A DNA stretch of 64,000 nucleotides from positions 62,001 through 126,000 of the forward strand of contig JAQTZV010000004.1 of NCBI GenBank assembly GCA_028687585.1, read 5' to 3'. Position 1 is the first letter of the stretch. The number at the start of each line of letters is the position of its first letter. The translations under genes and the position numbers were made by a program. This stretch comes from Desulfuromonadaceae bacterium (lineage in GTDB: Bacteria; Desulfobacterota; Desulfuromonadia; Geobacterales; Pseudopelobacteraceae). Shown here piece by piece: positions 3,146-24,774 of the stretch. The notes beneath the pieces are model-generated. The model saw nothing but the letters and a program-made list of their open reading frames with translations. It was not told the DNA's origin and did no database searches.

Positions 3146-4846
3146 ATGCAATGGTTCAATAACATGAAAATAGGTACGCGGTTGGGTGGTGTGTTCGGAT
3201 TTATGCTTTTTCTTCTGCTCGCGGTAGCAGCTACGGGATACTGGGGCATGAACATGATCGACGAAGAGGTGTCCAGCGACCTGGACAGCGACGGCGTCAT
3301 CGCCCAGCATGCCGGCAGGGCGCGCGCCAATATTCTCGGACTGCGGCGCTATGAGAAGGATACGTTCATCAACATCGGTTCCGCTGAGAAGGTGGAAAAC
3401 TACCACAAACAGTGGAGCGAAGAGTTAGCTAGTGTCGATGAGCGGCTCAAAGCCCTGGAGAAGGTTGCTGTAGATCAGAAAGACAAGGAGCAGGTCAAAC
3501 TGATGAGGGATAATTTTGCGCTCTATACTGCAGGATTCAACAAGGTCTACGCCATGATCCGTGACGGCAGGGTAAAAACAACTACCGAGGCCAACACCGC
3601 CATTGGCGAATACAAGGACGAAACTCACAAGATGGAGAAGATTGCCTCCGAGTTTGCCGCTGATGGCTATAAACGGCTGGATCACATCAAGGAGCTGATC
3701 GATATCCAGATGAAGGAGGTGTTGCAGGTCATGATTCCGATTGTCGTGATTTCCTTTATCATCGGCATTGTGGCCGCTCTACTGATCACGCGCAGCATCA
3801 AAAAACCGGTCAGCGAGGGAGTGGCAGTGGCCAACGCTCTTGCAGAGGGTGACCTGACCGTGGACATAGAAGTTACCAGTAAGGATGAAATCGGCCAACT
3901 GATGGGATCACTGAAAAACATGGTGGATAAGCTGAAGCAGGTGGTCGGCGATGTGATCAGCGCCACCGATAATGTTGCTTCCGGCAGCCAGGAACTCTCC
4001 GCCACTGCCCAGCAGATGTCCCAGGGGGCCACCGAACAGGCTGCCTCTGCCGAAGAGGTTTCTTCCTCCATGGAAGAGATGGCCTCCAGCATTCGCCAGA
4101 ATACCGATAACGCCATGCAGACGGAAAAGATCTCTATCAAGAGTGCCAAAGACGCCAATGAAGGTGGCAAGGCAGTGGTCGAGACGGTTGCGGCAATGAA
4201 GGAGATCGCTACCAAGATAGGAATAATTGAAGAAATCGCCCGACAGACCAATCTGCTGGCTTTGAACGCCGCTATTGAGGCTGCCCGTGCCGGAGAACAT
4301 GGCAAGGGGTTTGCGGTGGTCGCCTCCGAAGTCCGAAAACTGGCCGAACGGAGCCAGTCGGCCGCTGGAGAAATATCAAGCCTTTCCTCTCGCAGTGTAG
4401 CGATTGCCGAGCAGGCGGGCGAGATGCTGACTAAAATGGTACCGGATATTCAGAAGACCGCCGAACTGGTGCAGGAAATCACCGCTTCGAGCCGCGAACA
4501 GGATACCGGCGCCGAGCAGATCAACAAGGCGATCCAGCAGTTGGACCAGGTTATCCAGCAGAACGCCTCGGCTTCGGAAGAGATGGCCTCAACCTCGGAA
4601 GAACTCGCCAGTCAGGCTGATCTGCTGAAAGACTCGATCAGCTTCTTCCGCATCGATAATAGTGGTGGCAGACAGACATCCCGCACGGTGCGCCCTCCGC
4701 AGCACAAAGCCCAGGTGGCCCATATTGGCCACGGTCATAAAGACGCGGAGGCGACAGAAAAGAAAAAGGGGAGCAGCAAAGGTGTTCATCTCCAACTTGG
4801 CCAGGCCGGGCCGGATCACCTGGATGATGAGTTTGAGAAATTCTGA
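3146..4846 (+). CDS. Methyl-accepting chemotaxis protein
   Basis: 4HB-type N-terminus, HAMP, signalling hairpin [42 protein letters not shown]. Confidence 0.97.
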
Positions 4847-4849
4847 CGG

Positions 4850-4955
4850 CAACCCCCCCCCAACCCCCTCCTTACCAGAAGTAGGCGTTTCTAAGCGAAA
4901 ACAGGAGGGGGGGTAAAAGCCCCCTCCTTCCTTTCAAGGAGGGGGTTGGGGGTGG
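4850..4955. repeat. GGAGGGGG/CCCCCTCC palindromic repeat (family B)
   Basis: aaccccctcctt...aaggagggggttgggggtgg inverted arms between MCP and cheW. Confidence 0.7.
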
Positions 4956-4989
4956 TGATTTTGGCTATAGACATAAGGAGGAGAAAACC

Positions 4990-5472
4990 ATGAGCGTTTC
5001 ATCAATCACGGAAACAACCCAGTACCTGACCTTCAAGCTCGACGAGGAGATTTTTGCCCTCGACGTTGCCAAGGTACGGGAAATTCTGGAATACAGCAGT
5101 GTCACCAAAGTGCCGCAAACTCCGGATTTCATGCGTGGAGTCATCAACCTGCGCGGCAGCGTGGTGCCGGTAATCGACCTGCGCCTGAAGTTCGGCATGA
5201 GCGCAACCGAGCAGAGCGTCAACACCTGCATCATCGTAACGGAGGTGGCAATGGAGGGTGAAACCATCCTGCTCGGTGCATTGGCCGATTCGGTGCAGGA
5301 GGTGAACGAGATGGAGGCGGAACAGATAGAGGCCGCGCCACATATCGGCACGCGACTCAACACCGACTTCATCAAGGGGATGGGGAAAAAGGACAACGCC
5401 TTCGTGATGATCCTTGATATCGACAAGGTGTTCAGCTCGGGAGATCTGTCGATGATTGCCGATGCGGCGTAA
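4990..5472 (+). CDS. cheW: CheW chemotaxis coupling protein
   Basis: YLTFKLDEEIFALDVAKVREILEY...FMRGVINLRGSVVPVIDLRLKFG. Confidence 0.95.
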   Translation: MSVSSITETTQYLTFKLDEEIFALDVAKVREILEYSSVTKVPQTPDFMRGVINLRGSVVPVIDLRLKFGMSATEQSVNTCIIVTEVAMEGETILLGALADSVQEVNEMEAEQIEAAPHIGTRLNTDFIKGMGKKDNAFVMILDIDKVFSSGDLSMIADAA

Positions 5473-5473
5473 G

Positions 5474-5512
5474 GCCAATTACAAATCAAAGATGATATCA
5501 AGTCGACGAGTA
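5474..5512. repeat. Partial copy of AATTCCAAATCAAAG repeat (family C half-element)
   Basis: ggccaattacaaatcaaagatgatatcaagtcgacgag resembles one arm of the full copies at 10142, 21749 and 28111. Confidence 0.5.
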
Positions 5513-5587
5513 GCGAGTCCCCGGTTTGCGGCGCCAGCCTCAAACAGAATCCACGTATGAATCTGACAATGACAAAGGAGAAACGTA

Positions 5588-7282
5588 ATGCAATGGCTCA
5601 ATAACATGAAGATAGGAAAAAGAATGGCGCTCGGCTTTGGTTTGGTACTGGTGATTATGTGCGTTTTGATCTGGGAAGGCATATCCAGTATGTCCGGAAT
5701 CCAGCAGAATCTGGATCGAATAGTCAAGGTAAATAATGTCAGACTGGAACTGCTGACTGATGTCGACGACAGTTCTATGAATATATTTATTAATATTCGC
5801 AATATACTTGTCAATACCAATCCGGAAAAACGTCTGGAATATCAACAAAGAATTACAAAATACAGGGAAGACTATGTTGCCAATTTAAAAAAAGTTGAGG
5901 AGATGACAAGCAAAGACGACAAGAAATCCCATGAAATTATTGCAAAAATAAAGGAAGCGACCACTGTAGCCTCTGCCCTGAACGCAAAAGTAGTCGAACT
6001 TGCATTGGCCGGTAAGGATGCTGATGCTGCGGCATTACTCTCCAAGGAAGCGGCTCCGGCAGGACGTGTAATGGAAGAGGCGCTCGGTGAGTTGTCCGAC
6101 CATAACAAAGAACGCAACAAGATACGCTTTGAACAAGCATCCAAAGAGTACAATAATTCCCGTACTATAATGTTCGGCCTGGGTGCCGCTGCTATCCTGA
6201 TCGCCCTCATTACCGCCTTTTTCCTGACCCGTGGCATCACCCATCCGATCAACGAGGCTCTGGCTGTTGCCAACGCCCTGGCAAAAGGCGATCTGACCAT
6301 CTCGGTGGTATCGAGATCAAAGGACGAAACCGGCCAGATGATGACGGCTATCGCCAACATGGTTGAAAAACTGAAGCAGGTTGTCGGTGAAGTCATGGGC
6401 GCTTCCGATAACGTTGCTTCGGGCAGCCAGGAACTTTCTTCCACGGCCCAGCAGATGAGCCAGGGGGCTACTGAACAGGCAGCTTCAGCCGAGGAAATTT
6501 CGTCCAGTATGGAAGAGATGGCCTCCAGTATCCGCCAGAATACCGACAACGCCATGCAGACAGAAAAGATCTCCATCAAGAGTTCTGTCGATGCCAAAGA
6601 AGGGGGCAAGGCGGTGGTTGAGACGGTTGCCGCGATGAAGGAGATCGCTTCCAAGATCGGCATTATCGAGGAGATCGCCCGCCAGACCAACCTGTTGGCT
6701 CTGAATGCTGCCATTGAAGCGGCCCGTGCCGGCGAGCATGGCAAAGGTTTTGCGGTGGTTGCATCCGAAGTCCGCAAACTGGCAGAGCGGAGCCAGTCGG
6801 CCGCCGGAGAAATTTCCAGCCTCTCCACCCGCAGTGTGGCAATTGCCGAACAGGCGGGCGAGATGCTGACCAGGATGGTGCCGGATATTCAGAAAACCGC
6901 CGAACTGGTGCAGGAGATCACCGCTTCCAGCAAGGAACAAGATACCGGTGCCGAGCAGATCAACAAGGCCATTCAGCAGCTCGATCAGGTCATCCAGCAG
7001 AATGCTTCCGCTTCCGAAGAGATGGCATCTACCTCTGAAGAACTATCCAGCCAGGCTGAACAGCTGCAGCACTCCATCAGCTTCTTTGATATCGGCAACG
7101 CGGGGCGGCGCACAGCATCCGCTGCAACGGCACATAAACCGGCCCACAAGGTTCAGGTTGCCCACGCCAAAAGCGGTGCTGCTGCGCAGTCGCAGGCAAA
7201 ACGCACCCCTGGCGGCGGCGTAAACCTGCAGCTTGGCCAGGCCGGTCCGGATCACCTGGATGATGAGTTTGAGAAATTCTGA
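5588..7282 (+). CDS. Methyl-accepting chemotaxis protein
   Basis: HAMP + MCP signalling domain nearly identical to 3146..4846; same C-terminus [19 protein letters not shown]. Confidence 0.97.
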
Positions 7283-10460: not shown

Positions 10461-10982
10461 ATGAACAAACAGCTACGGACGAAGAGCGGGAAAATCCGGA
10501 ATAACAGGAAATATCGCCGGACGCATCAGGAGTCGGCAGACAATTACGCCTATTCCGTCACCGTCAAGGACGGCGTACCGGTGGAAACAATCCATCAGCC
10601 GGGGTGCGAACGGATAACCGGCCATACTCTGGAGGAGTTCAACACCGATTCCGGTCTTTGGTACCGGATCGTTCATGAGGATGACCGCCCTCTGGTATTT
10701 GGCATGGCGAAACTCATGCTGGCCGATCCGGACAACCACACTCTGGAGTACCGTATCCTGCACAAGGACGGGTCCATACGCTGGGTCTCGAACACCCTGG
10801 CTCCCAGCCCTGCCAGGCAAAACGCTCCGCTTCAGAACAACGACCATTCAGGCGGCACCCTCATGTTCTATGACGGGATTGTCACCGAGATCACCCGGCG
10901 TAAGACGATCGATGAAGAGTTGACGCGCCGGATGGAGAAAAAGACCTTCTTCCGACACGGAGGATGCCATGCGAACAGATGA
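10461..10982 (+). CDS. PAS-domain protein without a visible output domain
   Basis: RITGHTLEEFNTDSGLWYRIVHEDDRPLVFGMAKLMLADPDNHTLEYRILHKDGSIRWVSN. Confidence 0.75.
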   Translation: MNKQLRTKSGKIRNNRKYRRTHQESADNYAYSVTVKDGVPVETIHQPGCERITGHTLEEFNTDSGLWYRIVHEDDRPLVFGMAKLMLADPDNHTLEYRILHKDGSIRWVSNTLAPSPARQNAPLQNNDHSGGTLMFYDGIVTEITRRKTIDEELTRRMEKKTFFRHGGCHANR

Positions 10983-13662
10983 TTCGAGCCAGCTGTCCGG
11001 GCAATCCCCGATCAAGAAATTCTTCATCGCCGCTCTTCTTGCCTGGTCCACCCTCGCCATTATCGCGACAATATGGGAATGCCTGGACAACAAGGCGATC
11101 ATGACCACCAACGCCAAGACCATGGCTCGCGCCAGCATTGAAAAGGATATTATGTTCCGTCGCTGGGCTGCCGAACATGGCGGAGTGTATGTCCCGGTAA
11201 CCGGCAAAACGCCTCCCAACCCCTGGCTGAAGGTTCCGGAACGGGATATCGTCACTCCGTCGGGGAAACTGCTGACCCTCATGAATCCAGCCTATATGAC
11301 CAGACAGATCTTCGAGATCGGCCAGTTGTCCCCCAACTTCCCGCAAGGGCATATCACCAGTCTGAAACCGATCCGCCCGGAAAACGGCCCCGACCCCTGG
11401 GAAACCGGAGCATTGACCGCAATCGAGAAAGGGGTGGAACAGCAGGGGGAGTTTCAGGTCATAGGAGGGAAAACGGTTTTCCGCTACATGTACCCGCTTG
11501 TGACTGAAAAACCTTGTCTGAAATGCCATGCGTCACAAGGGTACCGGGAGGGGATGATGCGCGGCGGTATCAGCGTTGCCATACCGACAGCGGAGCTTGA
11601 TCGCGCGTTACGGCAAAGTAATGTGAACCATGTTTCCATCATAGGCGTTGTCTGGCTCATGGGACTTGGCGGAATCTGGGTCGGCTTCCGCAGGATCAGC
11701 TCCGACGCCATCTCGCTCACGGCCCAACGGGACAATCTCAACGCCGTTTTTGACGCATCGCCGATGCCGATGCTGCTGGTTAATGAGCAGATAACGGTTG
11801 TTCGGTGCAACCAGGCTTTCAAGGAGTACTGCATCAATTACGATGCTCTCTCCGACAAGCGCTGCGGAGCACTCCTGAAATGCACCAACGCCGAAGCGGA
11901 GCCGGACGGATGCGGCACTACTCCTTCGTGCAAGTCATGCAATCTCTTGCGCGCTCTGCAAGAGGGAGTGAGAAACGGACAATCTACCAGCGGCGAGACA
12001 ACTATTATTCGAGACGAATATGACGGAAGCGCATCGGAGGCCTGGGTGCTTTTCGGCGTGCAAGCGGTTTCTTTAGATGGTCAACGCCATGCACTGCTGT
12101 CGTTCATGGATATTACCGGCCGTAAGCATCTTGAGGAGAAACTCGCCTCTCGCGAGCAGGAGTTTCGCGCTCTGGCGGAAAACTCGCCCGATGTCATTGC
12201 CCGCTACGATCGTTTCTGTCGCCGTCTCTACGTCAATCCAGCCATGAAACATTTGGCAGAAGAATCAGCCGATCTCCTGACCGGCGCTACTCCCACCGAG
12301 AAATTCGTCGTTAATCGGGAGGTGGGTGCGCAGGTACAGAACGCTGTGGAACGGGTTCTTGAGTCGGGCGTTGCGCAGGAGAGCGAACTGGTATGGAAGG
12401 ATTCCAGTGGAGTGATGCGTTATTTCCAGGGGAGGTACGTGCCCGAATTCGGTACGGATGGAACGGTTGAGAGCGTTCTTGGCATAACGCGGGATATTAC
12501 TTCGCTGCGGAGAACTGAGGCTCAATTACTGCATGTGCAGAAGATGGAATCCATCGGCACCCTGGCCGGTGGTGTGGCTCACGATTTCAACAATATTCTT
12601 ACCGTAATCGGCGGTTATGCCGAATTGCTCTGCATCTCACTCAAGGACGATGAGCGCAGGTTTTCATTTGCTCATGAAATATCCGCATCCGTCGTTCGGG
12701 GAGCAGAGATGACCAAGAGTCTTCTGATGTTCAGCGGCAAGCACGAACCTCAGAAGCAGTATGACAACCTCAACAGAATTGTCGCCAATCTGCAAAAAAG
12801 CATGTCACGGCTGCTCCGATCCGACATTACTCTCACCTTCATGCTTTCAGCCGACCAGCTCCCGATTTTCGCAGATCGGATCCAGATCGAACAGATATTG
12901 ATCAATCTTATCGTAAACGCGAGGGACGCCCTCGCCTCCGGCGGCAGGATCCATATTGAAACATCACGTGTGGATATAGACGAAGAGCTTGTAGCCGGCG
13001 GCGCAACCCTTTCTCCGGGAAGCTACGGGCTCGTCACCGTTGGGGACGACGGGACCGGAATGGACGCTGAAACGGTGGGAAGAATCTTCGAACCGTTTTT
13101 CACCACCAAAGAGCTTGGCAAGGGAACCGGCCTCGGTCTGGCCATCGTCTTTGGCATCGTAGGGAATAACAATGGCCAAATCTCCGTGGAAAGTGAGCCG
13201 GGCAAAGGTTCGACCTTCGGGCTTTATCTGCCGATTTATACGGGGGATGAACCGCAGAAAAATGTGCCGGTTCCGGACGCCGCTGAATTTTATGGCAATG
13301 AGACGATATTGGTTGTCGATGATGATCAGACGGTGCTGACGGTAACCGTTAAATTACTTAACATGTTTGGCTACACAACCCTTACCGCCACCGACGGAGT
13401 GGAAGCGGTGGCGGTTTTCGAGGCGCATCGCGATGAAATCCAGGCTGTGGTCACCGATCTTATGATGCCGCGCATGAACGGCCGAGAGGCCATTGAACTG
13501 ATCCGACGTCAAAAACCGGGTCTGCCGGTTATCCTCGCCAGCGGGTACACCGACGACATCATTGACCTCGCAGCAATCGAAGCGCTGGATGTCATATTTC
13601 TGCAAAAGCCGCTGCTGCTGAAAAAACTGCTGGCGGCGATCCGCGACGGGCTGAACAGATAG
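10969..13662 (+). CDS. Hybrid histidine kinase with N-terminal DUF3365/Tll0287-like domain carrying CxxCH
   Basis: [50 protein letters not shown]; HATPase; C-terminal receiver VVDDDQ...TDLMMPRMNG. Confidence 0.92.
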   Translation: MRTDDSSQLSGQSPIKKFFIAALLAWSTLAIIATIWECLDNKAIMTTNAKTMARASIEKDIMFRRWAAEHGGVYVPVTGKTPPNPWLKVPERDIVTPSGKLLTLMNPAYMTRQIFEIGQLSPNFPQGHITSLKPIRPENGPDPWETGALTAIEKGVEQQGEFQVIGGKTVFRYMYPLVTEKPCLKCHASQGYREGMMRGGISVAIPTAELDRALRQSNVNHVSIIGVVWLMGLGGIWVGFRRISSDAISLTAQRDNLNAVFDASPMPMLLVNEQITVVRCNQAFKEYCINYDALSDKRCGALLKCTNAEAEPDGCGTTPSCKSCNLLRALQEGVRNGQSTSGETTIIRDEYDGSASEAWVLFGVQAVSLDGQRHALLSFMDITGRKHLEEKLASREQEFRALAENSPDVIARYDRFCRRLYVNPAMKHLAEESADLLTGATPTEKFVVNREVGAQVQNAVERVLESGVAQESELVWKDSSGVMRYFQGRYVPEFGTDGTVESVLGITRDITSLRRTEAQLLHVQKMESIGTLAGGVAHDFNNILTVIGGYAELLCISLKDDERRFSFAHEISASVVRGAEMTKSLLMFSGKHEPQKQYDNLNRIVANLQKSMSRLLRSDITLTFMLSADQLPIFADRIQIEQILINLIVNARDALASGGRIHIETSRVDIDEELVAGGATLSPGSYGLVTVGDDGTGMDAETVGRIFEPFFTTKELGKGTGLGLAIVFGIVGNNNGQISVESEPGKGSTFGLYLPIYTGDEPQKNVPVPDAAEFYGNETILVVDDDQTVLTVTVKLLNMFGYTTLTATDGVEAVAVFEAHRDEIQAVVTDLMMPRMNGREAIELIRRQKPGLPVILASGYTDDIIDLAAIEALDVIFLQKPLLLKKLLAAIRDGLNR

Positions 13663-13761: not shown

Positions 13762-13789
13762 TTGACTTTCACTTAACAAGAGATATGAT
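13762..13789 (+). promoter_or_regulatory. Sigma70-like promoter (TTGACT-N16-TATGAT)
   Basis: ttgact at 13762, tatgat at 13784; followed by palindrome at 13793. Confidence 0.55.
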
Positions 13790-13792
13790 TTT

Positions 13793-13810
13793 GTTTAAAC
13801 CGGTTCAAAC
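13793..13810. promoter_or_regulatory. 18-bp near-perfect palindrome, candidate operator
   Basis: GTTTAAACCGGTTCAAAC, one mismatched pair, directly downstream of the -10. Confidence 0.5.
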
Positions 13811-13820
13811 GGGGTAATAC

Positions 13821-14486
13821 ATGCTGAAGCAGGTCATGAGCCAATATAACGAAGCGATCATGGACACTGACCGTGACAGGGCGCTGCAGATAGTGCACGT
13901 TGCCGTTGATCTGGGGATTTCACCGGAAGAGATTGTATTCAATGTCGTGGTGCCTGCCATTGAACTGATGATGCAATCAATCAGCGAAAATCAGGGCATC
14001 AGTCTGGCCCAGCACTTCATGGCCGCCCAGATTGCCTCGGAAGTGGTCGATGAGATGGTGCCGCTATTTGCAAAAGCTCCTGAAATTGTCGGCACGGTTG
14101 TTATCGGTACTTCCCAGGGGGATTTTCACGGCCTGGGCAAAAGGATCGTCAGCGGCTGTCTGAAAGCAATGATGGTAGAAGTGATCGATCTCGGACTCAA
14201 CGTGGCTCCGGAACGCTTCATTGATGAGGCGCTTGCCCGGAATGCCCAGGTTATTGCCATATCGTCCATGATGGTACACACGGCAACAGGCGAAAACGGC
14301 TGTCGCCGGGTACGCAAGCTTCTGAAGGAACGTGACCTGGAGGATCGTATCCGGATCGCCGTTGGGGGGGCGCCGTATCGCTTTGATCCGGACTTATTCA
14401 AGAGTGTGGGGGCGGATGGCTGGGCCGAAAACGGCGTGACGGCCGGGAGAGTTATCACCGATCTGATCCGGGAGGTGCGGAGATGA
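13821..14486 (+). CDS. Corrinoid (B12-binding) methyltransferase-associated protein
   Basis: Cap-domain-like N-terminus; TSQGDFHGLGKRIVS (DxHxxG) and C-terminal VGGAPYRFDPDLFKSVGADGWAENG. Confidence 0.9.
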   Translation: MLKQVMSQYNEAIMDTDRDRALQIVHVAVDLGISPEEIVFNVVVPAIELMMQSISENQGISLAQHFMAAQIASEVVDEMVPLFAKAPEIVGTVVIGTSQGDFHGLGKRIVSGCLKAMMVEVIDLGLNVAPERFIDEALARNAQVIAISSMMVHTATGENGCRRVRKLLKERDLEDRIRIAVGGAPYRFDPDLFKSVGADGWAENGVTAGRVITDLIREVRR

Positions 14487-15520
14487 TGACAGGCATGGAA
14501 CGGCTTGTCGCTGCAATCGACGGCACCCCGGCCGATCGGATTCCGGTATTTTGCAACCTGCTGGACCAGGGGGCGAAAGAGTTGGGACTACCCCTGGAGG
14601 AGTATTATTCCAGTGGTGAGCATGTAGCCGAGGCGCAGCTCAAGATGCGCGCAAAATACGGTTACGACTGTCTATGGAGCCTCTTTTACGTCGGGAAGGA
14701 GGCCGAACTGCTGGGGTGCCGCAAGATAATCTTTGCCAAGGACGGCCCCCCGAATGTCGGCGAGATGGTCATCAAGAAATACGACGACATCGCCAGGCTG
14801 CAGGTGCCTGACGACATCACCTCGCATCCCGCCTTCGCCGAAGAGCTGAAATGCCTCCGTATCCTCAAGGCCGAAGCAGGTGGCAAGTATCCGATCTGCG
14901 CCTATCTGACCGCCTCCATGACCATGCCCGCCATCTTGATGGGAATGGAAAAATGGCTGCAGATGCTCATGATGGGGCCGAACGACCTGCGCGACGAACT
15001 GCTGACCAAATGCTCGGATTTTTTTCAGAAACAGGTCGCCGCCTACCGCGCTGCCGGCGCTGATGTCCTCGTCTATTCCAATCCCTTCGGTTCAACCGAC
15101 GTTATCCCGCGCACGTTCTTCAACGAATTATCACTCCCCTGGATGGTACGGGATCTGACGCCGGGAGGTACATCCGGGATTGTCTACTACTGCGGCAGCG
15201 CCCGTTTCAACAACGTCATCAGATCGGTAATTGAGCATCTGGGGATCGGTGTGTTCTATCTCAGCCCGATGGACGATATTGCCGAGGGGAAACAACTTGT
15301 TGCCGGGCGTGGCCTGACCTGCGGGGTGATTAACGATATCATGCTCCTCGAATGGTCAAAAGAGGAGATTCGGGCTGAGGTCAAGCGGATGATTGCGGCC
15401 GGCAAGCAGGGGGGGAAGTTCCTGTTCGGCACGCTGGTCATGCCGTATAACATCCCTGAGGAGAATATCCGGACAATGCTGGAGGCGGCCTACGAATACG
15501 GGAGTTTTGAATGCCCATGA
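14483..15520 (+). CDS. Uroporphyrinogen decarboxylase-like/MtaA-type methyltransferase
   Basis: RLVAAIDGTPADRIPVFCNLLDQ...; 4-bp overlap with the corrinoid protein gene. Confidence 0.85.
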   Translation: MMTGMERLVAAIDGTPADRIPVFCNLLDQGAKELGLPLEEYYSSGEHVAEAQLKMRAKYGYDCLWSLFYVGKEAELLGCRKIIFAKDGPPNVGEMVIKKYDDIARLQVPDDITSHPAFAEELKCLRILKAEAGGKYPICAYLTASMTMPAILMGMEKWLQMLMMGPNDLRDELLTKCSDFFQKQVAAYRAAGADVLVYSNPFGSTDVIPRTFFNELSLPWMVRDLTPGGTSGIVYYCGSARFNNVIRSVIEHLGIGVFYLSPMDDIAEGKQLVAGRGLTCGVINDIMLLEWSKEEIRAEVKRMIAAGKQGGKFLFGTLVMPYNIPEENIRTMLEAAYEYGSFECP

Positions 15521-16125
15521 CACCTGCCGCCCCCCCACCTCCGCTCATTCTCGGTTGCGGAATTCTGCAAAAGGAGATCCGTTTTCTGATTAAGAAAAAC
15601 GGCTGGGCGCTCGAGACACATTTTCTTGATTCGGCACTGCATATCGACTTTGACAAGCTTTCCCTGGCGCTGACTTCGACCCTCAGTCACCTTGCCGGAC
15701 GTGAGGGTTTTGTGTTCTATGGCGCCTGCCATCCGCTGATGGGATCTATACTGCATGCTGCCGGGACATACCGGACCGCGGGCCAGAACTGCGTAGAGAT
15801 GCTCCTGGGAGAAGAACTATTCACCAAAGAGCTGGAACAGGGGGCTTTTTTTCTCCTTGAGGAGTGGGCGCACCGCTGGGAGCGGATTGTAACCGCAACC
15901 ATGGGGACAAACCGGGAGGTCATTCGGGAGATGTATCAAGGGGACCGGGGCTATCTGCTCTGCCTCTCGACTCCCTGCTCGGGAGATTTCAGGAAAGAGG
16001 CAGAGGAGGCCGGCAGGCTGGTGGGGCTTCCCCTCCGCTGGCTGGATGTGTCGCTGGATCATCTGGAAATGGTGCTGCAGGAAGCAATAGACAGGAAAAA
16101 GCGGGAATCGCCATGTCGGAGATGA
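15511..16125 (+). CDS. DUF1638-like protein
   Basis: LILGCGILQKEIRFLI...FYGACHPLMGSIL...NCVEMLLGEELF..., family assigned from memory; overlaps upstream methyltransferase. Confidence 0.7.
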   Translation: MPMTPAAPPPPLILGCGILQKEIRFLIKKNGWALETHFLDSALHIDFDKLSLALTSTLSHLAGREGFVFYGACHPLMGSILHAAGTYRTAGQNCVEMLLGEELFTKELEQGAFFLLEEWAHRWERIVTATMGTNREVIREMYQGDRGYLLCLSTPCSGDFRKEAEEAGRLVGLPLRWLDVSLDHLEMVLQEAIDRKKRESPCRR

Positions 16126-17660
16126 CAGCCATAGCCACAGAAGAGCTGCTGCACCTGAAAGAACGTGCCGGGAAACTGGCCATGGACAAGTCGTACCTCC
16201 AGTTGGTCATTAACCTGATGAACAAGGTCAGCGCCGCTCAAGGGCTTGATAATACGATCGATAGCCTGCTGAATAATATCCTCAATGTCCTGGGCGGTGC
16301 CAACATTATCCTCTACTATCTGATCGATAATGAACTGTACTATGCGGATATCTTCGGGAAGCGAATGAAGCCCGATCGCATCGACGATGCGCTCGTCAGA
16401 AGGGCAATGGATTCCGGCGAACCATGTGAACATGAGCACGATTTCGAAGATACACAGATGCAGACCACCGCGTTCTCCAAGGCCTACACCTGGGTATTTC
16501 CTCTGCTGGCGGGGAGTGAAAAAATAGGGGTGATCAAGCTGGAGTGCCTGCATATCGGCATGCGTGAGTTGTATGGCACATTGCCGACCTTTTTCAATTA
16601 TGTTGCAAGTGTCATCAAGAACGAAATACAGAGCCACACCCGTCTCCAACTGGCATTTGATCAACTGGAGGAGATGAATGAAGAACTTGAGATGGAGATT
16701 GATGAGCGCGAACAAGCCGAGAAAAAGCTACAGGAAAATACCGACGAGCTGATGGCCGGCAATATCGAGCTGCAACGGGCGTATGACAACCTGAAGATGG
16801 TCCAGTCCCAACTTCTCCAGCAGGACAAGATGGCATCCATTGGTCAACTGGCGGCTGGAGTGGCCCATGAGATCAACAACCCGATGGGATTTATCATCAG
16901 TAATCTGGGGAGCCTCGAAAAGTACGTTGAGAAGATGACCTCCTACCTGGATGCAAATGAACAGTACTTTGCCGGCTGCGAACCGGCCGTCCTGGAGTTT
17001 CTGGTTCAGGAGAAAAACAGATTCAAAATCGATCGAATCCGCAAGGATCTTCCGGACCTGATACGTGAATCCCTTGAAGGGGCGGAGCGGGTACGCAAGA
17101 TTGTTCAGGATCTGAAGAGCTTCTCCCGGGTGGACGGTACGGCGTTTGCCACTGCCGACATCAATGAAGGGCTTGACAGCACCATTTCCATTGCCTGGAA
17201 CGAACTGAAATACAAAGCGACCGTGATCAGGGAGTATGGTTCGCTGCCGCAGATTCGGTGCAATATGGGGCAGCTGAACCAGGTCTTTTTGAACATTCTG
17301 GTGAACGCCGCTCATGCTATTGACGATCATGGGGAAATCCGCATATCAACCCGGGAAGAGAACGGCACAGTCATAATTGCCATCAGCGACAGCGGCAGTG
17401 GTATTGCCCCTGAAAATATACCGCGTATCTTCGACCCGTTTTTTACCACCAAAGAGGTCGGGAAGGGAACCGGGCTCGGTCTTGCCATAGCCTACGACAT
17501 TGTTGTCAACAAACACGCGGGGAGTATCGAGGTTACGAGCGAAGTCGGCGTCGGAACGACCGTTACCATCATGCTGCCGATGAGAGAGCAACGTGTTGAC
17601 GATGCAGTTACTTCAGACGAAATCGTCAGCAGGGAGATGCATACATGCCTGAAACCGTAA
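16113..17660 (+). CDS. GAF-like sensor histidine kinase
   Basis: GAF-like N-terminus, coiled coil, [23 protein letters not shown], HATPase; start ATG 16113. Confidence 0.9.
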
Positions 17661-19240
17661 CCATATCTGCAGGTAAACTGACATATCTGGAGGAGCGCGC
17701 CAGGATTCTGGCCCAGGAGAAGTCGTACCTCCAGATGGTTATGCGGCTGATTAGCCGGGTCAGCGAAGCCTCGGGAGTTGAAGACACGGTCGACTGCATA
17801 ATGCGCAACATTCTTGATGTCATCGGTGGCGTCAACATTATCCTCTATTACTGGATCGACGGCGATATCTTCTCTGCTGACGTCTACGGAACGAAGGAAA
17901 AGCATGACGCCATCGACGACGATCTGGTCCTGAAAGTACAGACAACCCGCGAACCGATCGAGGTTGAGCACGACTCCAGCGACACCCGGATGATACTGCC
18001 GGTGATCTCCAATGCTTACACCTGGGTCTATCCGCTCCTGGTGGGGAATGATCTTGTCGGCGTGCTCAAGATGGAGAGCCTCCATATCAGTATGCGGAGG
18101 TTGTATGAACAGCTGCCGACCTTTTTCAACTTCACCGCACTGGTATTGAAGAACGAGTTTTTCGGACAGTCACGTCTCAAACTGGCTAATGACCAATTGA
18201 GCAAGATAAACGATGAGCTTGAGGAGGAGATCAAGGCACGTAAGCTTGCCGAGGAGGAGCTCAAACAGTCCCGTGATGATCTGGAATATCAGGTTTCAGA
18301 GCGGACAGCAGAACTGGAGGCGCAGCATGTTCGTCAGGAAGAGCAGATCCGGCAGCGCACTGCGGAATTGCTGGAACGGGGCAGCGAACTGCAGGGCAAC
18401 CAGCAGGCACTGATGAATATTGTGGATGATCTTAACCAGAAGACCGACGAACTGGAACAGGCAAATGCCAAACTGATGGAGCTGGACCGTTTGAAATCGA
18501 TGTTCATCGCCTCGATGAGCCACGAATTGCGGACTCCGCTCAACTCGATCATCGGTTTTTCCAGTATCATCCGTGATGAATGGCTCGGCCCGGTCAACCT
18601 GGAACAGAAGGAGAACCTTGATACCATCCAGCGTTCGGGAAAGCATCTGCTCAGCCTGATCAACGACGTGATCGACGTTTCCAAGATCGAGGCCGGCAGG
18701 ATTGAGACCTGTTTTGAGGAGTTTGACCTGTACGACCTGTTGACGGAAGCGGTTCGGTATGTGGAAAAAGATCTTAAAGACAAGGGGCTGGAACTGCACC
18801 TGGACATCAATCATCACGCCGTTTTCACCGACAAACGCCGGCTTATGCAATGCGTCATCAATCTGCTGAGCAATGCGGTGAAGTTTACCGAACATGGCAC
18901 GGTTTCCGTAGTTTCTGCCATGAACGACAGCGGACCGTGTGCCGGGGGACGGAGCCAGTCCGGCACAGCCGCCTCGTGGATCGATATTGCGATTGGCGAC
19001 ACCGGGATCGGCATCACCAGTGAAGACGTTCCCCGGCTCTTTGAGCCATTTGTGCGTCTGGAATCTCCGATGAAAGTCATCGTGCCGGGAACCGGACTCG
19101 GCCTTTATCTGACCAAAAAGCTTGTTGTGGAAGTTCTTGGCGGTGATATACTCTGCAAAAGCACAATCGGCGTGGGAAGCACCTTCATTCTGACGTTTCC
19201 GGAGCGAGTTTATGAAAAGAGTACTGGTAGTAGAGGATAA
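17645..19240 (+). CDS. GAF-like sensor histidine kinase (paralogue N-terminus of the preceding gene)
   Basis: NIILYYWIDGDIFSADVYG...; SMSHELRTPLNSIIGFS; HATPase. Confidence 0.92.
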   Translation: MPETVTISAGKLTYLEERARILAQEKSYLQMVMRLISRVSEASGVEDTVDCIMRNILDVIGGVNIILYYWIDGDIFSADVYGTKEKHDAIDDDLVLKVQTTREPIEVEHDSSDTRMILPVISNAYTWVYPLLVGNDLVGVLKMESLHISMRRLYEQLPTFFNFTALVLKNEFFGQSRLKLANDQLSKINDELEEEIKARKLAEEELKQSRDDLEYQVSERTAELEAQHVRQEEQIRQRTAELLERGSELQGNQQALMNIVDDLNQKTDELEQANAKLMELDRLKSMFIASMSHELRTPLNSIIGFSSIIRDEWLGPVNLEQKENLDTIQRSGKHLLSLINDVIDVSKIEAGRIETCFEEFDLYDLLTEAVRYVEKDLKDKGLELHLDINHHAVFTDKRRLMQCVINLLSNAVKFTEHGTVSVVSAMNDSGPCAGGRSQSGTAASWIDIAIGDTGIGITSEDVPRLFEPFVRLESPMKVIVPGTGLGLYLTKKLVVEVLGGDILCKSTIGVGSTFILTFPERVYEKSTGSRG

Positions 19241-19613
19241 CAGCGACAACCTGCGGCTCATCTCCTATGCCCTGCGACGCTACGGCTACGAGGTAATTGC
19301 CGCCGATACCGGGGTGAAGGGGGTGGATATGGCCACATCGGAGCACCCCGTTTTCATCATCATGGACATCAACCTGCCCGACATCGATGGCCTTGAAGCC
19401 ACCCGGCGCATTCGCCGGAGCGGGGCAAACGGGGATATTCCGATCATAGCCATTACCTCCAATGCGATGGCCGGAGATATGGCCATGGTTCTGGCCGCCG
19501 GCTGTACCGGTTATTTCGAAAAACCGATCGATCCGTTGATCATCATGGATAAGATCCATGCCCTGCTAGGTTGGCCCGTGGGGAGGGAACACCATGAATG
19601 TCCTAATCGTTGA
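19212..19613 (+). CDS. Single-domain response regulator
   Basis: KRVLVVEDNSDNLRLI...IIMDINLPDIDG...GYFEKPIDP. Confidence 0.93.
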   Translation: MKRVLVVEDNSDNLRLISYALRRYGYEVIAADTGVKGVDMATSEHPVFIIMDINLPDIDGLEATRRIRRSGANGDIPIIAITSNAMAGDMAMVLAAGCTGYFEKPIDPLIIMDKIHALLGWPVGREHHECPNR

Positions 19614-21744
19614 AGACAATTCCGCCGCCAGGAAACTTCTGCGCATTACTTTTGAACACTACAAATGTACTGTTATCGAAGCAGAGGATGGCGTGGAAGG
19701 TCTTGAGCTGGCCGCTCGCCATAAGCCGGACATTATCATTTCCGACGCGCTGATGCCTCGCATGGACGGTTTTCAGCTGCTTCGGGCGCTTAAGGTCGAT
19801 CCGGAGCTCAAATCAATCCCCTTTGTTTTCTATTCATCCACCTATACCGGCGAAAAGGAGATAGAGCTGGCTCTGTCGCTCGGCGCGGAAACATTTGTTT
19901 CCAAACCGGTAGAACCTGCCGTACTCTGGGAAAAGACCTGCTCCATCATGAACGATTGGGAGGCACGGCAGAGAAAACCTGCGCACCAGGCAACAGGCGA
20001 TACTGATGAACAGTACCTTCGCGAATACAGCCGGATTGTGGCGAACAAGCTGGAAGAGAAGGTGCATGAGCTGGAAGAGGAGCTGGCTCTGCGCGCACAG
20101 GCCGAAGAAGAATTGCGCCGCCTGAATGCAGAGTTGACCAGGGAAATCGACGAACGCGGAAAAGCAGAAAGGGCCCTCAGGGAGCAGGAAGAGGAGCTGG
20201 CAATGATCTTTGAGGCTGCCCCGTTCATCATGTTGCTGCTTGACGGCGAACGAAAGGTCTGCCGGGCCAACGGTATGGCATACTCTTTTACCGGTACAGC
20301 AATCAGTGACATGATTGGCCGCCGGAGCGGCGAAGCGTTACGCTGCCTTCACTCCGTCGACTCCCCGGAGGGATGCGGTTCCGGCATATCCTGTCGCGAC
20401 TGTAACATCCGAAAAACAGTTATGGACACTTTTGAGAGCGGGAATAGCCATCATCAGGTGGAGACGAGTTTGCCGTTCTCTGTTCAGGGAAAGGAACAGA
20501 CTATTCAGTTTCTCCTTTCAACGACAAAAGTAATGGTTGGACGTCAGACGATGGTTCTGATCAGCCTTCAGGATATCAGCGAGTACAAAAAACTTGAAGC
20601 AGAGCTGCGTCATGTACAAAAAATGGAATCTATCGGTACCATGGCTGGCGGTATAGCCCATGATTTCAACAACATTCTTACCGTTATCATCGGCTACAGC
20701 CAGATTGCCCTCTTGAAAATGAGCGACGACGATTCCCAGCAGGAGAATGTCAAACAGATACTTGCGTCGGCGGAGCGGGCTGCCAATCTGACGAGAGATC
20801 TTCTTCTTTTCAGCAGGAAAAAGGTTGGCGACAAGAAGAATGAGGATCTGAACGATATTGTGCGATCATTGGAAAAGTTCCTGCATCGGATTATCGGCGA
20901 GGATATTGCCTGCACGGTTAATCCGGGTAACGAAGCGATGCCGATCCTCGCCGATGCTCACCAGATTGAACAGGTTCTGATGAACTTTGCCACCAATGCA
21001 CGGGACGCCATGCCGAATGGCGGCTCCTTGTCAATCGCCACCGAACGGATCCAGCTTGATGAGGAGGATATTACATCACTTGGCTGCGGCGAGTGCGGTG
21101 AGTATGCCGTACTGACCGTTACTGATACCGGTATTGGTATGGATGACAAAACGCGCCAACAAATCTTCGACCCGTTTTTTACGACAAAAGAGGTCGGTAA
21201 GGGGACAGGTCTTGGACTGGCGGTCGTCTACGGTATTATCAGGCAGCATGACGGGCAGATAACTGTTGACAGCGAGCCAGGTCACGGGACGACATTCCGG
21301 GTATACCTGCCGGTAACCAGAGCAGCGGCGAAAGAAAATAAAATCGATCAGAATCATAAACAATCTGTCAGGGGCGCTGAGACGATACTTCTGGCGGAGG
21401 ATGAAGAGAGCCTTCGGAATATGTCTCAGTCGCTGCTTGAAAGTTTCGGTTATACGGTTATAAGTGCGGTAGACGGGGAAGATGCGGTGAAAAAATTCCG
21501 TGAGAACAGGAAACAGATCCGGCTTCTTCTGTTCGACGTGGTCATGCCGAAAAAAAACGGGATAGATGCCTACGATGAAATCAGGGCGATCAAGCCGGAC
21601 ATAAAGGTGATATTTGCAAGTGGCTATTCAACTGAAGCTGTTCAGCAGAAAGCTCTGACCAACGAAAATGTCATATCGATCGCCAAGCCCTATTTACCAT
21701 CCAATCTGCTTGCTTTGGTACGAAGTGTGCTGGACAAAAAATGA
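19594..21744 (+). CDS. Receiver-PAS-HisKA-HATPase-receiver hybrid kinase
   Basis: [61 protein letters not shown]-terminal LAEDEES...[10 protein letters not shown]. Confidence 0.94.
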
Positions 21745-21888: not shown

Positions 21889-24774
21889 TCAGTTATGCGC
21901 AAGCTTCTGCGCCTCTTTCGCGTTGGCCTGAAACAGATTGGCGGTCTCAAACACGAGATTCAAGGTTCCACGATACCCCACCCAGACCTTCTGGTGGGCT
22001 CCCAGACGATCAAACACCGGTAGGCCGGCCCGCAGGTGGGCCCCGATTTTAAGCTTGTTAGCCGCCTGGCGGCCATTTGAGTTTGCCACGATCAGGTCAG
22101 CCCCGATTGCCGTCGTCTCCAGATCCTCCAGATCACCAACAAACACATTCCCCCCCGGCAGAGTATCAAGACCTCTGGTGCGGGTGGCAGAAAGCGCCCC
22201 TTGAATTTCACACCCCATTCCGGCTAGGAAACCGGTCAAGGTCTTGAGGTTGTCCGACTCCAGGGCGAGGGCGACCTTCTTGGTACCGAACTGGTAGTGA
22301 CTGTCCACCATGGCATCCATGAGGCGACTGCGCCAGCGGCGATGTTTTTCCGGTATCGGCCTGCCGCTGATGGCAGACAAGGCTGCCATGAACCGGTCAG
22401 TCTCGGCCAGTCCGGTTAGCGAGGTGAAGCCGTAGGCCGGAATAGCAAATTTTCCTTTGAGCTTGAGGGCGGCTTTCGCCAGCGAATCTCCGACGTACAG
22501 TGTCGCACAGCTGCACCCGGCTTTCCTGATCTCTGCAACGGTAATACCGCCGGTTGAAAGTGGTGATACGACGTCGTCAATATGACCGTCCATGGCATTG
22601 GAAATATCCGGAATTGTCAGTGCCTTCAGGCCGAATGACTCGACCAGCTCTTTCAGCTCTTCCACATCCGCCGGAGTCAGATGTGCTCCCGGCAGCAGAT
22701 TGACCTGATTCGGTACGACCGCACCACCTTCCGCCAGAGTAGAGACAATTGCCTCCACCGCTGCGGCGTAGCCCTCCTGCAGCGAACCGCAGTAATCCGG
22801 AGTAGAGGCCCAGATAACCGGGACAGCATCATGTTCCGGATGTTCTGACCGGAACTCTGTTATGATTTTATGAACATCATCACCCATGGTTTCCGTCAAG
22901 CCGGTGGTCATCACGCCGACTACTTCAGGATGAAACTTCTCGATCACCCGCCCGATCCCCTTTTTAAGGTTTTCCCAGCCGCCGAAGATCGCACTGTCCT
23001 CGCTCATCGCGGTAGCATTCAGGGCGATCGATTCCTTGTAATGCCGCGACAACTGCAGCCGTATAAAGGTCGAGCACCCCTGGGCACCGTGCAGCAGGCC
23101 AAGCATGTTGTTGATACCCAGATAGGCCATGGTGGCCCCGAGTGCCGGCGAATTCTTCTGCGGGTTTACGGTTGCCGCTTTTCCCCCTCCCCCTTGACGG
23201 GGGAGGGCCGGGGTGGGGGTGACGCTGCAATTTTCAGCATTGCTGCTAATGGCAACTTCCCCCTCCCCCTGTCCCCCTCCTTTAGGCCCCAGAGGGTCCG
23301 CCGGGGGAGGGGGAAATGCCATCGATTCCGCCGACGGCATCGGCAATGCCAGAAACGTCTCGGCGTGGTGTAGGGGCAATTCATGTATTGCCCCGGCGCC
23401 ATACCCTTCTTCCCACGGAGCGGGAGTATTCAGGGTCGGCCAGATCGGGTTGTTGACGGTCATATCCAGCTGCCGGGAAAACGTTACCATCCCCTCGTAC
23501 CCGGCATAGGGATGACTGCGGCCATGATTGATGTCCATGAACGGTGTTTTGGTTTTGAGCGCCAAAAACTTGGTCTTGCCGCCGGCAACGATCAGATCCG
23601 GCCGCTTGGCATGCATGACTTCCAACAGGCCGGCGGTGGAGGTGTCCTCGATGATCTGGGCATCCTTGTGCATCAACCCTTTCATGCGGTAAAAATCCTC
23701 CAGGGTCGAGTTCTGCGTCCCGGCCGCCAGCACTTCTACCCCCAATTCACTCAAGGCATTGACCATCGACCAGGTTTTGACACCGCCGGTGAACAGCACC
23801 GCCGTCTTCCCTTCCAGGCGCGCCCGGTACGGTGCAATGGCCGCGCGGCATTTCGCCTCTTCCTCATGAATCAGCCGCTCCACCCGATCCTGCATGGTCC
23901 GTTTTTCCAGCCCGCCCACGATGTTGTCCAGTTCACGGGCTATATCACGCAGAGCCTTTGCCGTATCGGTCATACCGTAGAACGATTCCTCCAGATAGGG
24001 CATGCCGTAGGTTTTCTGCATTTTCTTCGCAAGATTGGTCAGCGACTTGGAGCAGATGATGATATTGAGCTTTGCCCGGTGCGCGTAGCGCAGCTCTTCA
24101 AATTTTGCATCTCCGCTGAAGCAGGAGAGAACCTGGATCCCCAGCCGGTCAAAGAGCGGCAGCATGCCCCACAGGTCGCCGGCGATATTATACTCGCCAA
24201 TGAGATTTATCGGGTATTCACCCAGGCTTGGTGGTTCGGTTGTGCCGATGACGTATTTAAACAGGATCTCTCCGGCCAGTCGGTTGCCGATGTTCTTGTC
24301 GCCGATAAACCCGGGTGTGTTGACCGGTATGATCGGAATTGCGATTTTTTCTGACGCGGCGGTACAAACCGCCTCAATATCATCGCCGGTCATGGCGGTT
24401 ACACAGGTTGCATAGACGAAAATTGCTCTGGCCTGATCCGCATAGCGCTCGGCCAGTTCGAGGATCGCTTTATAGAGCTTCTTTTCCCCGCCGAAGATGA
24501 CGTCATTTTCCAGCATCTCGGTGGTGAAACCACGCCGGTACAGCTGAGCATCACTGGAACGGGCCCCCCGGTTGTCCCATGAATTGCCGGCGCAGCCGAT
24601 CGGGCCATGCACCAGATGGATTACGTCAGTGATCGGCATCAGCACGACCCGCGCACCGTCATAGGCACAGGAACGCTCCGTTCCTTCGCCCGGTTCTGAT
24701 TTTTTGCAGAACTTTGGTGCGCCCTTGTCGTTTGTTTCGCAGTCGGTTACGTCGTAATAATCGGGCTTTGCCAT
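21889..24774 (-). CDS. nifEN: Fused nitrogenase cofactor scaffold protein NifE-NifN
   Basis: NifE part: GCAGNSWDNRGARSS, NPIWPTLNTPAPW; NifN part: VNPQKNSPALGATMAYLGINNMLGLLHGAQGCSTF; one 961-aa ORF. Confidence 0.95.
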   Translation of the reverse strand: MAKPDYYDVTDCETNDKGAPKFCKKSEPGEGTERSCAYDGARVVLMPITDVIHLVHGPIGCAGNSWDNRGARSSDAQLYRRGFTTEMLENDVIFGGEKKLYKAILELAERYADQARAIFVYATCVTAMTGDDIEAVCTAASEKIAIPIIPVNTPGFIGDKNIGNRLAGEILFKYVIGTTEPPSLGEYPINLIGEYNIAGDLWGMLPLFDRLGIQVLSCFSGDAKFEELRYAHRAKLNIIICSKSLTNLAKKMQKTYGMPYLEESFYGMTDTAKALRDIARELDNIVGGLEKRTMQDRVERLIHEEEAKCRAAIAPYRARLEGKTAVLFTGGVKTWSMVNALSELGVEVLAAGTQNSTLEDFYRMKGLMHKDAQIIEDTSTAGLLEVMHAKRPDLIVAGGKTKFLALKTKTPFMDINHGRSHPYAGYEGMVTFSRQLDMTVNNPIWPTLNTPAPWEEGYGAGAIHELPLHHAETFLALPMPSAESMAFPPPPADPLGPKGGGQGEGEVAISSNAENCSVTPTPALPRQGGGGKAATVNPQKNSPALGATMAYLGINNMLGLLHGAQGCSTFIRLQLSRHYKESIALNATAMSEDSAIFGGWENLKKGIGRVIEKFHPEVVGVMTTGLTETMGDDVHKIITEFRSEHPEHDAVPVIWASTPDYCGSLQEGYAAAVEAIVSTLAEGGAVVPNQVNLLPGAHLTPADVEELKELVESFGLKALTIPDISNAMDGHIDDVVSPLSTGGITVAEIRKAGCSCATLYVGDSLAKAALKLKGKFAIPAYGFTSLTGLAETDRFMAALSAISGRPIPEKHRRWRSRLMDAMVDSHYQFGTKKVALALESDNLKTLTGFLAGMGCEIQGALSATRTRGLDTLPGGNVFVGDLEDLETTAIGADLIVANSNGRQAANKLKIGAHLRAGLPVFDRLGAHQKVWVGYRGTLNLVFETANLFQANAKEAQKLAHN
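23182..23316. repeat. Family B palindromic repeat inside the nifEN coding region (linker)
   Basis: ccccctcccccttgacgggggaggg...gtccccctcctttaggccccagagggtccgccgggggaggggg; homologous to 7291..7420. Confidence 0.8.
23370..23394. repeat. GTAGGGGCAATTCATGTATTGCCCC palindrome in the nifEN linker (family A-like)
   Basis: Encodes GAIHELPLH on the minus strand. Confidence 0.7.

Follow-up and report, generated by a model that had tools for sequence, protein, structure and literature searches.

In CarH a corrinoid domain serves signalling. Kinases linked to corrinoid methyltransferases have been described in Methanosarcina (MsmS and RdmS, PMC11784639), and the mec dichloromethane cassette combines kinase and receiver genes with a corrinoid protein and UroD-family methyltransferases (PMC9768040). 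UroD proteins accompany a corrinoid protein in the type 1 mlp gene clusters (PMC10418091), and in the CdmBC chloromethane methyltransferase and other UroD-family MT1 systems a zinc-free UroD-family protein is paired with a corrinoid protein and can methylate cobalt (PMC13222342). The split B12 methionine synthase of Phaeobacter includes a DUF1638-family protein with a corrinoid protein as partner (PMC5764234). Here we analyze a seven-gene operon of a Desulfuromonadaceae bacterium, lying in a stretch of 64,000 nucleotides (assembly GCA_028687585.1, contig JAQTZV010000004.1, positions 62,001 to 126,000; this whole stretch is referred to as the window). Its first three genes, the trio, encode a corrinoid protein (COR), a UroD-superfamily methyltransferase-like protein (MTA), and a DUF1638 protein, and the last four encode a phosphorelay. 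From comparative sequence analysis we estimate a probability of about 70% that the trio serves kinases and cyclic diguanosine monophosphate (c-di-GMP) enzymes as a corrinoid-based input module, and that the phosphorelay is driven by it. That the trio is a sensory input module of some kind appears highly probable.

The seven open reading frames are co-directional on the + strand and all intact at 13821-21744, and every gene overlaps the next: 14483-14486 (4 bp), 15511-15520 (10), 16113-16125 (13), 17645-17660 (16), 19212-19240 (29), and 19594-19613 (20). The positions and domain content given in the original prediction, a reading made from the bare sequence, were thus confirmed, as were the overlaps of 4-29 bp. 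The features are as follows, with positions in the window:

13762..13789, + strand: promoter-like site TTGACT-16-TATGAT preceding the first gene, matching at 10/12 positions
13821..14486, + strand: COR, corrinoid protein with a four-helix cap (PF02607, B12-binding_2) and a B12-binding Rossmann domain (PF02310) carrying the cobalt-ligand motif DFHGLG
14483..15520, + strand: MTA, UroD-superfamily methyltransferase-like protein (URO-D, PF01208) matching structure 4ay7, without the HxC...C zinc triad of the MtbA type
15511..16125, + strand: DUF1638 protein (PF07796, 88.8 bits against a cut-off of 27, above the gathering score)
16113..17660, + strand: HK1, cytoplasmic GAF histidine kinase (HisKA and HATPase_c by Pfam, GAF by predicted fold, kinase boxes)
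17645..19240, + strand: HK2, second GAF histidine kinase, paralogous to HK1 in its N-terminal domain (HisKA and HATPase_c by Pfam)
19212..19613, + strand: single-domain receiver without output domain (Pfam, receiver aspartate)
19594..21744, + strand: hybrid kinase REC-PAS-HisKA-HATPase-REC (Pfam)

The gene order is conserved across genomes. COR, MTA, and DUF1638 are followed by a histidine-kinase core in 63 of 73 related loci; the exceptions mostly reflect a contig end, a kinase core that was missed, or another type of output, and where the sequence extends far enough, trio and output domain are almost always found together. A search of named genomes with the UroD protein yielded 14 relatives, 60-94% identical to it, which belong to Geobacteraceae and to metagenome-assembled genomes labelled Nitrospirae, Verrucomicrobia, Hydrogenedentes, Methylomicrobium, and Methylicorpusculum; binning of such assemblies may err, chiefly for the Hydrogenedentes contig (77% identical), and the two methanotroph contigs, each from its own assembly, are mutually consistent. 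Direct scanning of these relatives showed the order corrinoid protein, UroD protein, DUF1638, and kinases with the same GAF domain, with a hybrid kinase between DUF1638 and the GAF kinases in L014. In L015 the trio with its GAF kinase is followed immediately by a MEDS-domain kinase (13931-16234); the MEDS domain has been linked to methylotroph DcmR sensing. The host genome itself holds two further corrinoid-UroD-DUF1638-kinase sets, L030 (C3:134.8-137.7 kb) and L032 (C56:62-66 kb), whose UroD proteins are 49% and 23% identical to that of the operon. In a phylum-wide sample the UroD protein is rare (7/395 genomes). The five new carriers outside the order belong to other Desulfobacterota families: L136 and L137 have trio, GAF domain, and kinase core, L138 encodes a DUF1638-PAS protein, L139 a DUF1638-kinase fusion detected by profile with its DUF1638 half below the Pfam reporting level, and L140 a Tll0287-GGDEF protein downstream, beside a UroD protein.

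The partner domain of the kinases follows the trio closely. The N-terminal domain of HK1 and HK2 has no Pfam match; its predicted structure is a GAF fold (AlphaFold2, pLDDT 82.8; Foldseek GAF matches down to 7e-7), and Pfam matches GAF weakly in homologues that are fused or paralogous. The earlier description of these kinases as GAF-like is right. Wherever they were looked for, the operon kinases and receivers have their H, N, G1, and G2 boxes and receiver aspartates, except that the N-box pattern found no match in the hybrid kinase. Kinases encoded after an unfused DUF1638 mostly have the same GAF domain. Among 141 genomes of the order, the UroD protein (E < 1e-40) was found in 48, DUF1638 in 65, and the GAF domain in 33 (42 matches), and all 33 GAF genomes fall among the 48 UroD-protein carriers (Fisher 7e-21, with relatedness not removed). 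A DUF1638 lies within 3 kb of 36 of the 42 matches. Of the six others, one belongs to a kinase cassette that shares its contig with DUF1638 at a distance of 14 kb (G068, L135), and one to a full kinase cassette in a genome whose trio lies on a different contig (G098, L124); the remaining four are proteins in genus g10. Two of the latter were examined and are GAF-PAS-SpoIIE phosphatases with no trio beside them (L125:9368-11113 and L126:2558-4345); the gene beside each looks, by eye, like trpS.

DUF1638 is itself joined to signalling domains. By profile search, DUF1638 and a kinase core share one open frame at 16 loci, and Pfam placed DUF1638 with HisKA/HATPase_c in five scanned fusion proteins (L067, L070, L100, L090, and L096), although in L100 DUF1638 scores just below the Pfam gathering score. 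The fusion partner of DUF1638 in L089 is a GGDEF domain with its GGEEF motif present. One input domain on differing outputs is, by established gene-fusion reasoning, the classical mark of a sensory module, and since DUF1638 occurs on both kinase and GGDEF outputs we read it as such. Because the loci stay together, DUF1638 is fused to outputs, and the GAF domain occurs only in trio genomes of the order, these comparisons give good support to a link of the trio with signalling. The same three observations bear on the pattern named in advance as fatal to the idea, a trio without kinases and kinases without the trio in relatives, which does not occur.

DUF1638 is likely an adaptor joining the corrinoid pair to the kinases, the best-supported of the proposals on mechanism. 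Phaeobacter supplies a separate line of evidence for cooperation of DUF1638 with corrinoid proteins: there, DUF1638 mutants share the phenotype of split B12 methionine synthase mutants (PMC5764234). The published accounts of DUF1638 that we examined draw no link to kinases. Residues C16, H44, C73, and C94 are common to the kinase-linked and metabolic kinds, save the most divergent fused members, and since both kinds share them a metal or cluster site is possible there. Naming the domain by its fold failed: the structure model is good (pLDDT 86.3), yet it gave no PDB fold match below E 1e-3, and no PDB sequence match was found either. In L070 (6930-8093) and, downstream of the trio, in L100, a common gene block after the DUF1638-kinase fusion encodes another B12-binding protein, which is extended considerably at its N-terminus.

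The corrinoid protein has the cap and B12-binding domain with DxHxxG that characterize MtaC/MtbC/MtgC-type corrinoid proteins, and it falls below the threshold of the methyltransferase corrinoid family, its best curated-family score being 102.9 bits for TIGR02370 (cut-off 215.3). The DxHxxG cobalt-ligand motif is present in every kinase-linked trio corrinoid protein read, so a corrinoid is probably bound. The UroD protein has as its best solved relative the MtaA/MtbA structure 4ay7 (E 2e-14; E 7e-25 by profile) and also stays below the NCBIfam cut-offs (100 bits vs. 235). Aligned to MtbA, its zinc-triad columns hold Y, S, and a gap, with a YYCG motif and one Cys nearby. The HxC...C triad is absent from all kinase-linked UroD proteins (0/63, a few contigs being counted twice) and present in 15/15 homologues away from kinases. 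On the tree the labels kinase-linked and no kinase are separated by 6 changes, compared to about 20 in shuffles; the no-kinase labels inside kinase clades include contig ends (L016, L081, and L146) and a missed kinase core (L132). MtaA-like methyl transfer to a thiol is therefore not borne out, the triad missing in every kinase-linked member. The remark that no substrate-specific methyltransferase was visible takes the UroD protein to be an MT2 of the MtaA type; with the triad absent, it may itself be the partner that binds substrate. In two contigs from metagenome-assembled genomes, L013 (about 4594-5619) and L018 (10001-10986), the UroD gene is broken by a stop or frameshift, reflecting either assembly error or decay.

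Neighbor clustering of 57 loci returned kinases, receivers, chemoreceptors, and a few periplasmic binding proteins, and the reductive activator RACo directly upstream of the trio in three loci (L014, L019, and L064). No shared pathway enzyme, methyl acceptor enzyme, or transporter recurs beside the trio in these 57 loci, so that no common metabolic neighbor names the ligand. Other DUF1638 loci of the same order (L105-L115) have several UroD proteins, some with corrinoid protein and RACo, and mostly no adjoining kinases; the 15 UroD proteins that keep the zinc triad are from loci of this kind. L109, L111, L113, and L115 each combine a pair of UroD proteins with RACo and DUF1638, and every UroD protein read there has the zinc triad; a corrinoid protein is encoded in three of the four, with none found in the stretch covered for L115. 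The host genome also has three corrinoid methyl-transfer clusters, L141 (C51), L142 (C33), and L143 (C35), each with a corrinoid protein; RACo occurs in C51 and C33, UroD proteins without HxC in C51 and C35, and a pterin-binding domain was confirmed in C51. These clusters are likely metabolic and could use the compound sensed by the trio. Many RACo matches of the genome survey hold one in-frame stop, possibly the gene end.

On its downstream side the operon is followed by a fused nifEN gene in convergent orientation (21889-24774). Nitrogenase regulation was rejected as a general link, the nifEN neighborhood being present only in the window, L008, L010, and L018 and missing from the other carriers. 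Directly upstream, at 10969-13662, lies a hybrid kinase with a Tll0287-like sensor domain whose CLKCH motif is a possible c-type heme site. All seven operon genes had been placed behind one promoter-like sequence; such a sequence does exist, its end separated from the first start codon by 31 bases, but such sites are no commoner in the region than in shuffles (5 observed, 6.0 expected). A single transcript for the seven genes is plausible.

We propose that the first three genes would form a corrinoid-based sensory input and the last four a phosphorelay driven by it. The UroD protein would be the receptor for a small C1 or methylated ligand and would act on the cobalt that the corrinoid protein carries. 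The state so produced, methyl-Co(III) vs. Co(II)/Co(I) or ligand-bound vs. free, would alter the contact of COR with DUF1638, which would relay it to the GAF domain and so switch autophosphorylation. Phosphate would then pass to the receiver-only protein and the hybrid kinase and on to an output encoded elsewhere; in other species the signal would go to a c-di-GMP enzyme. Since the operon encodes no acceptor for the methyl group, the corrinoid could stay methylated and so act as the signal, and RACo beside the trio in three loci fits this. That the signal is the methyl (alkyl) state of cobalt is accordingly a serious but tentative proposal; ligand binding or cobalt redox state, sensed without methyl transfer, is equally likely, because some carriers lack RACo and RACo is not enriched among them, and another signal is improbable. 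We hold as a working proposal, short of even odds, that this is a general, modular bacterial input device in which a former methyltransferase pair converts a methyl donor into a cobalt alkylation state and DUF1638 connects interchangeable outputs. The original prediction that the kinases read the corrinoid or methyl state, or a methylated ligand, thus holds for the link between trio and signalling, and the nature of the signal is not supported as stated.

Several observations weigh against a corrinoid-based input module. A missing zinc triad need not mean that catalysis is lost, because the UroD-family chloromethane:corrinoid methyltransferase CdmB functions without zinc (PMC13222342) and metabolic UroD proteins of the host genome also lack the HxC motif. 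RACo is not enriched with the trio at the genome level (37/48 carriers vs. 74/93 others, p = 0.83), and 11/48 carriers have no RACo at all; obligatory cycling through Co(I) by RACo is for this reason unlikely, and an obligatory RACo-dependent methyl transfer was rejected as the role of the trio. The operon has no DNA-binding output by Pfam, its regulator being a bare receiver. One locus, L017, has no DUF1638, and in L088 the DUF1638 protein carries a C-terminus without assignment.

An ordinary regulated enzyme system is the foremost alternative: the trio would demethylate a C1 compound and the operon kinases would only switch genes on, as in the mec cassette, where UroD/MtaA-family methyltransferases and a corrinoid protein go together with a kinase and a response regulator (PMC9768040). 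A UroD protein can function as an MT1 without zinc, and the host genome holds RACo and methyl-transfer genes elsewhere. We nevertheless regard this explanation as unlikely, given that DUF1638 is fused to kinases and GGDEF, that the operon regulator has no DNA-binding domain, that neither a methyl acceptor enzyme nor a transporter nor any further pathway enzyme is recurrent beside the trio, and that some carriers are without any RACo. Simple adjacency by chance might be suspected in a window and relatives so dense in kinases; the fusions contradict it, as do conservation over distant groups and the strict co-occurrence, and we give it almost no credence.

A B12 sensor of light or oxygen, with a photolabile or redox-labile cobalamin on the corrinoid protein, would account for the DxHxxG corrinoid domain and for carriers without RACo, and CarH is a known B12 photoreceptor. 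The conserved methyltransferase-like UroD partner would however be superfluous in such a sensor, RACo adjoins the trio in three loci, and the mostly anaerobic Geobacterales have little reason for sensing light, which makes this explanation quite improbable. The original prediction further allowed that the methyltransferase acts on a signalling partner, and the tight linkage of a methyl-transfer cassette to kinases invites the comparison with CheR and chemoreceptors, a kinase or receiver being the methylated protein. Nothing was found in support: the zinc site for a thiol acceptor is absent, the conserved partner domain is of the GAF ligand type and not a methylation helix, and we know of no UroD-family corrinoid methyltransferase that modifies a protein side chain. 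We consider it very unlikely.

Geobacter and its relatives have very many two-component systems, and for few of these is the signal known. The input module identified here recurs and its cofactor is defined, so that its signal can be sought by spectroscopy. The suggested role of DUF1638 as an adaptor between a corrinoid protein and its partner may bear on its unexplained part in methionine synthesis and corrinoid reactivation. If our interpretation is true, methyltransferase-type corrinoid proteins join the short list of B12-based sensors, enzymatic chemistry on B12 is employed as a sensor, and enzymes of C1 metabolism have been reused for sensing in anaerobes and possibly methanotrophs. No description of a trio-kinase input module was found in the literature searched, which does not prove that none exists; the trio-kinase sensor looks previously undescribed.

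Each of the related systems differs from this operon in a definable way. MtaA/MtbA methylcobamide:coenzyme M methyltransferase (4ay7) shares the UroD fold, a corrinoid protein partner, and sequence similarity, and its zinc triad is missing in all kinase-linked UroD proteins here. CdmBC belongs to a metabolic operon with an MT2, and CdmB matches the trio UroD profile weakly (1.3e-11). The mec cassette has several methyltransferases including an MT2, a transporter, a transcriptional regulator, and a kinase with a PocR domain, and no DUF1638-kinase fusion is mentioned in the text consulted (PMC9768040); a transcription-factor output and a methyl acceptor enzyme in the cassette mark mec-type regulated operons, and the operon here has neither. 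Phaeobacter DUF1638 works in a metabolic context with no kinase, and its role was proposed, in general terms, as B12 reactivation (PMC5764234). CarH is one light-triggered protein with its own DNA-binding domain and no methyltransferase partner, whereas COR has no DNA-binding fusion by Pfam. Type 1 mlp clusters combine several Mlps (Mlp2 and Mlp3), a corrinoid protein, and a reductive activator, and have no signalling genes; the operon has by Pfam a single UroD protein, no RACo, and no further enzyme, the RACo genes of its genome lying on C51 and C33. It is the L105-L115 loci that resemble type 1 mlp clusters, with a nearby DUF1638 in L109, L111, and L113. In MsmS and RdmS, heme or thiol redox sensing is proposed inside the kinase itself, and these kinases have no H-box, whereas the operon kinases have one.

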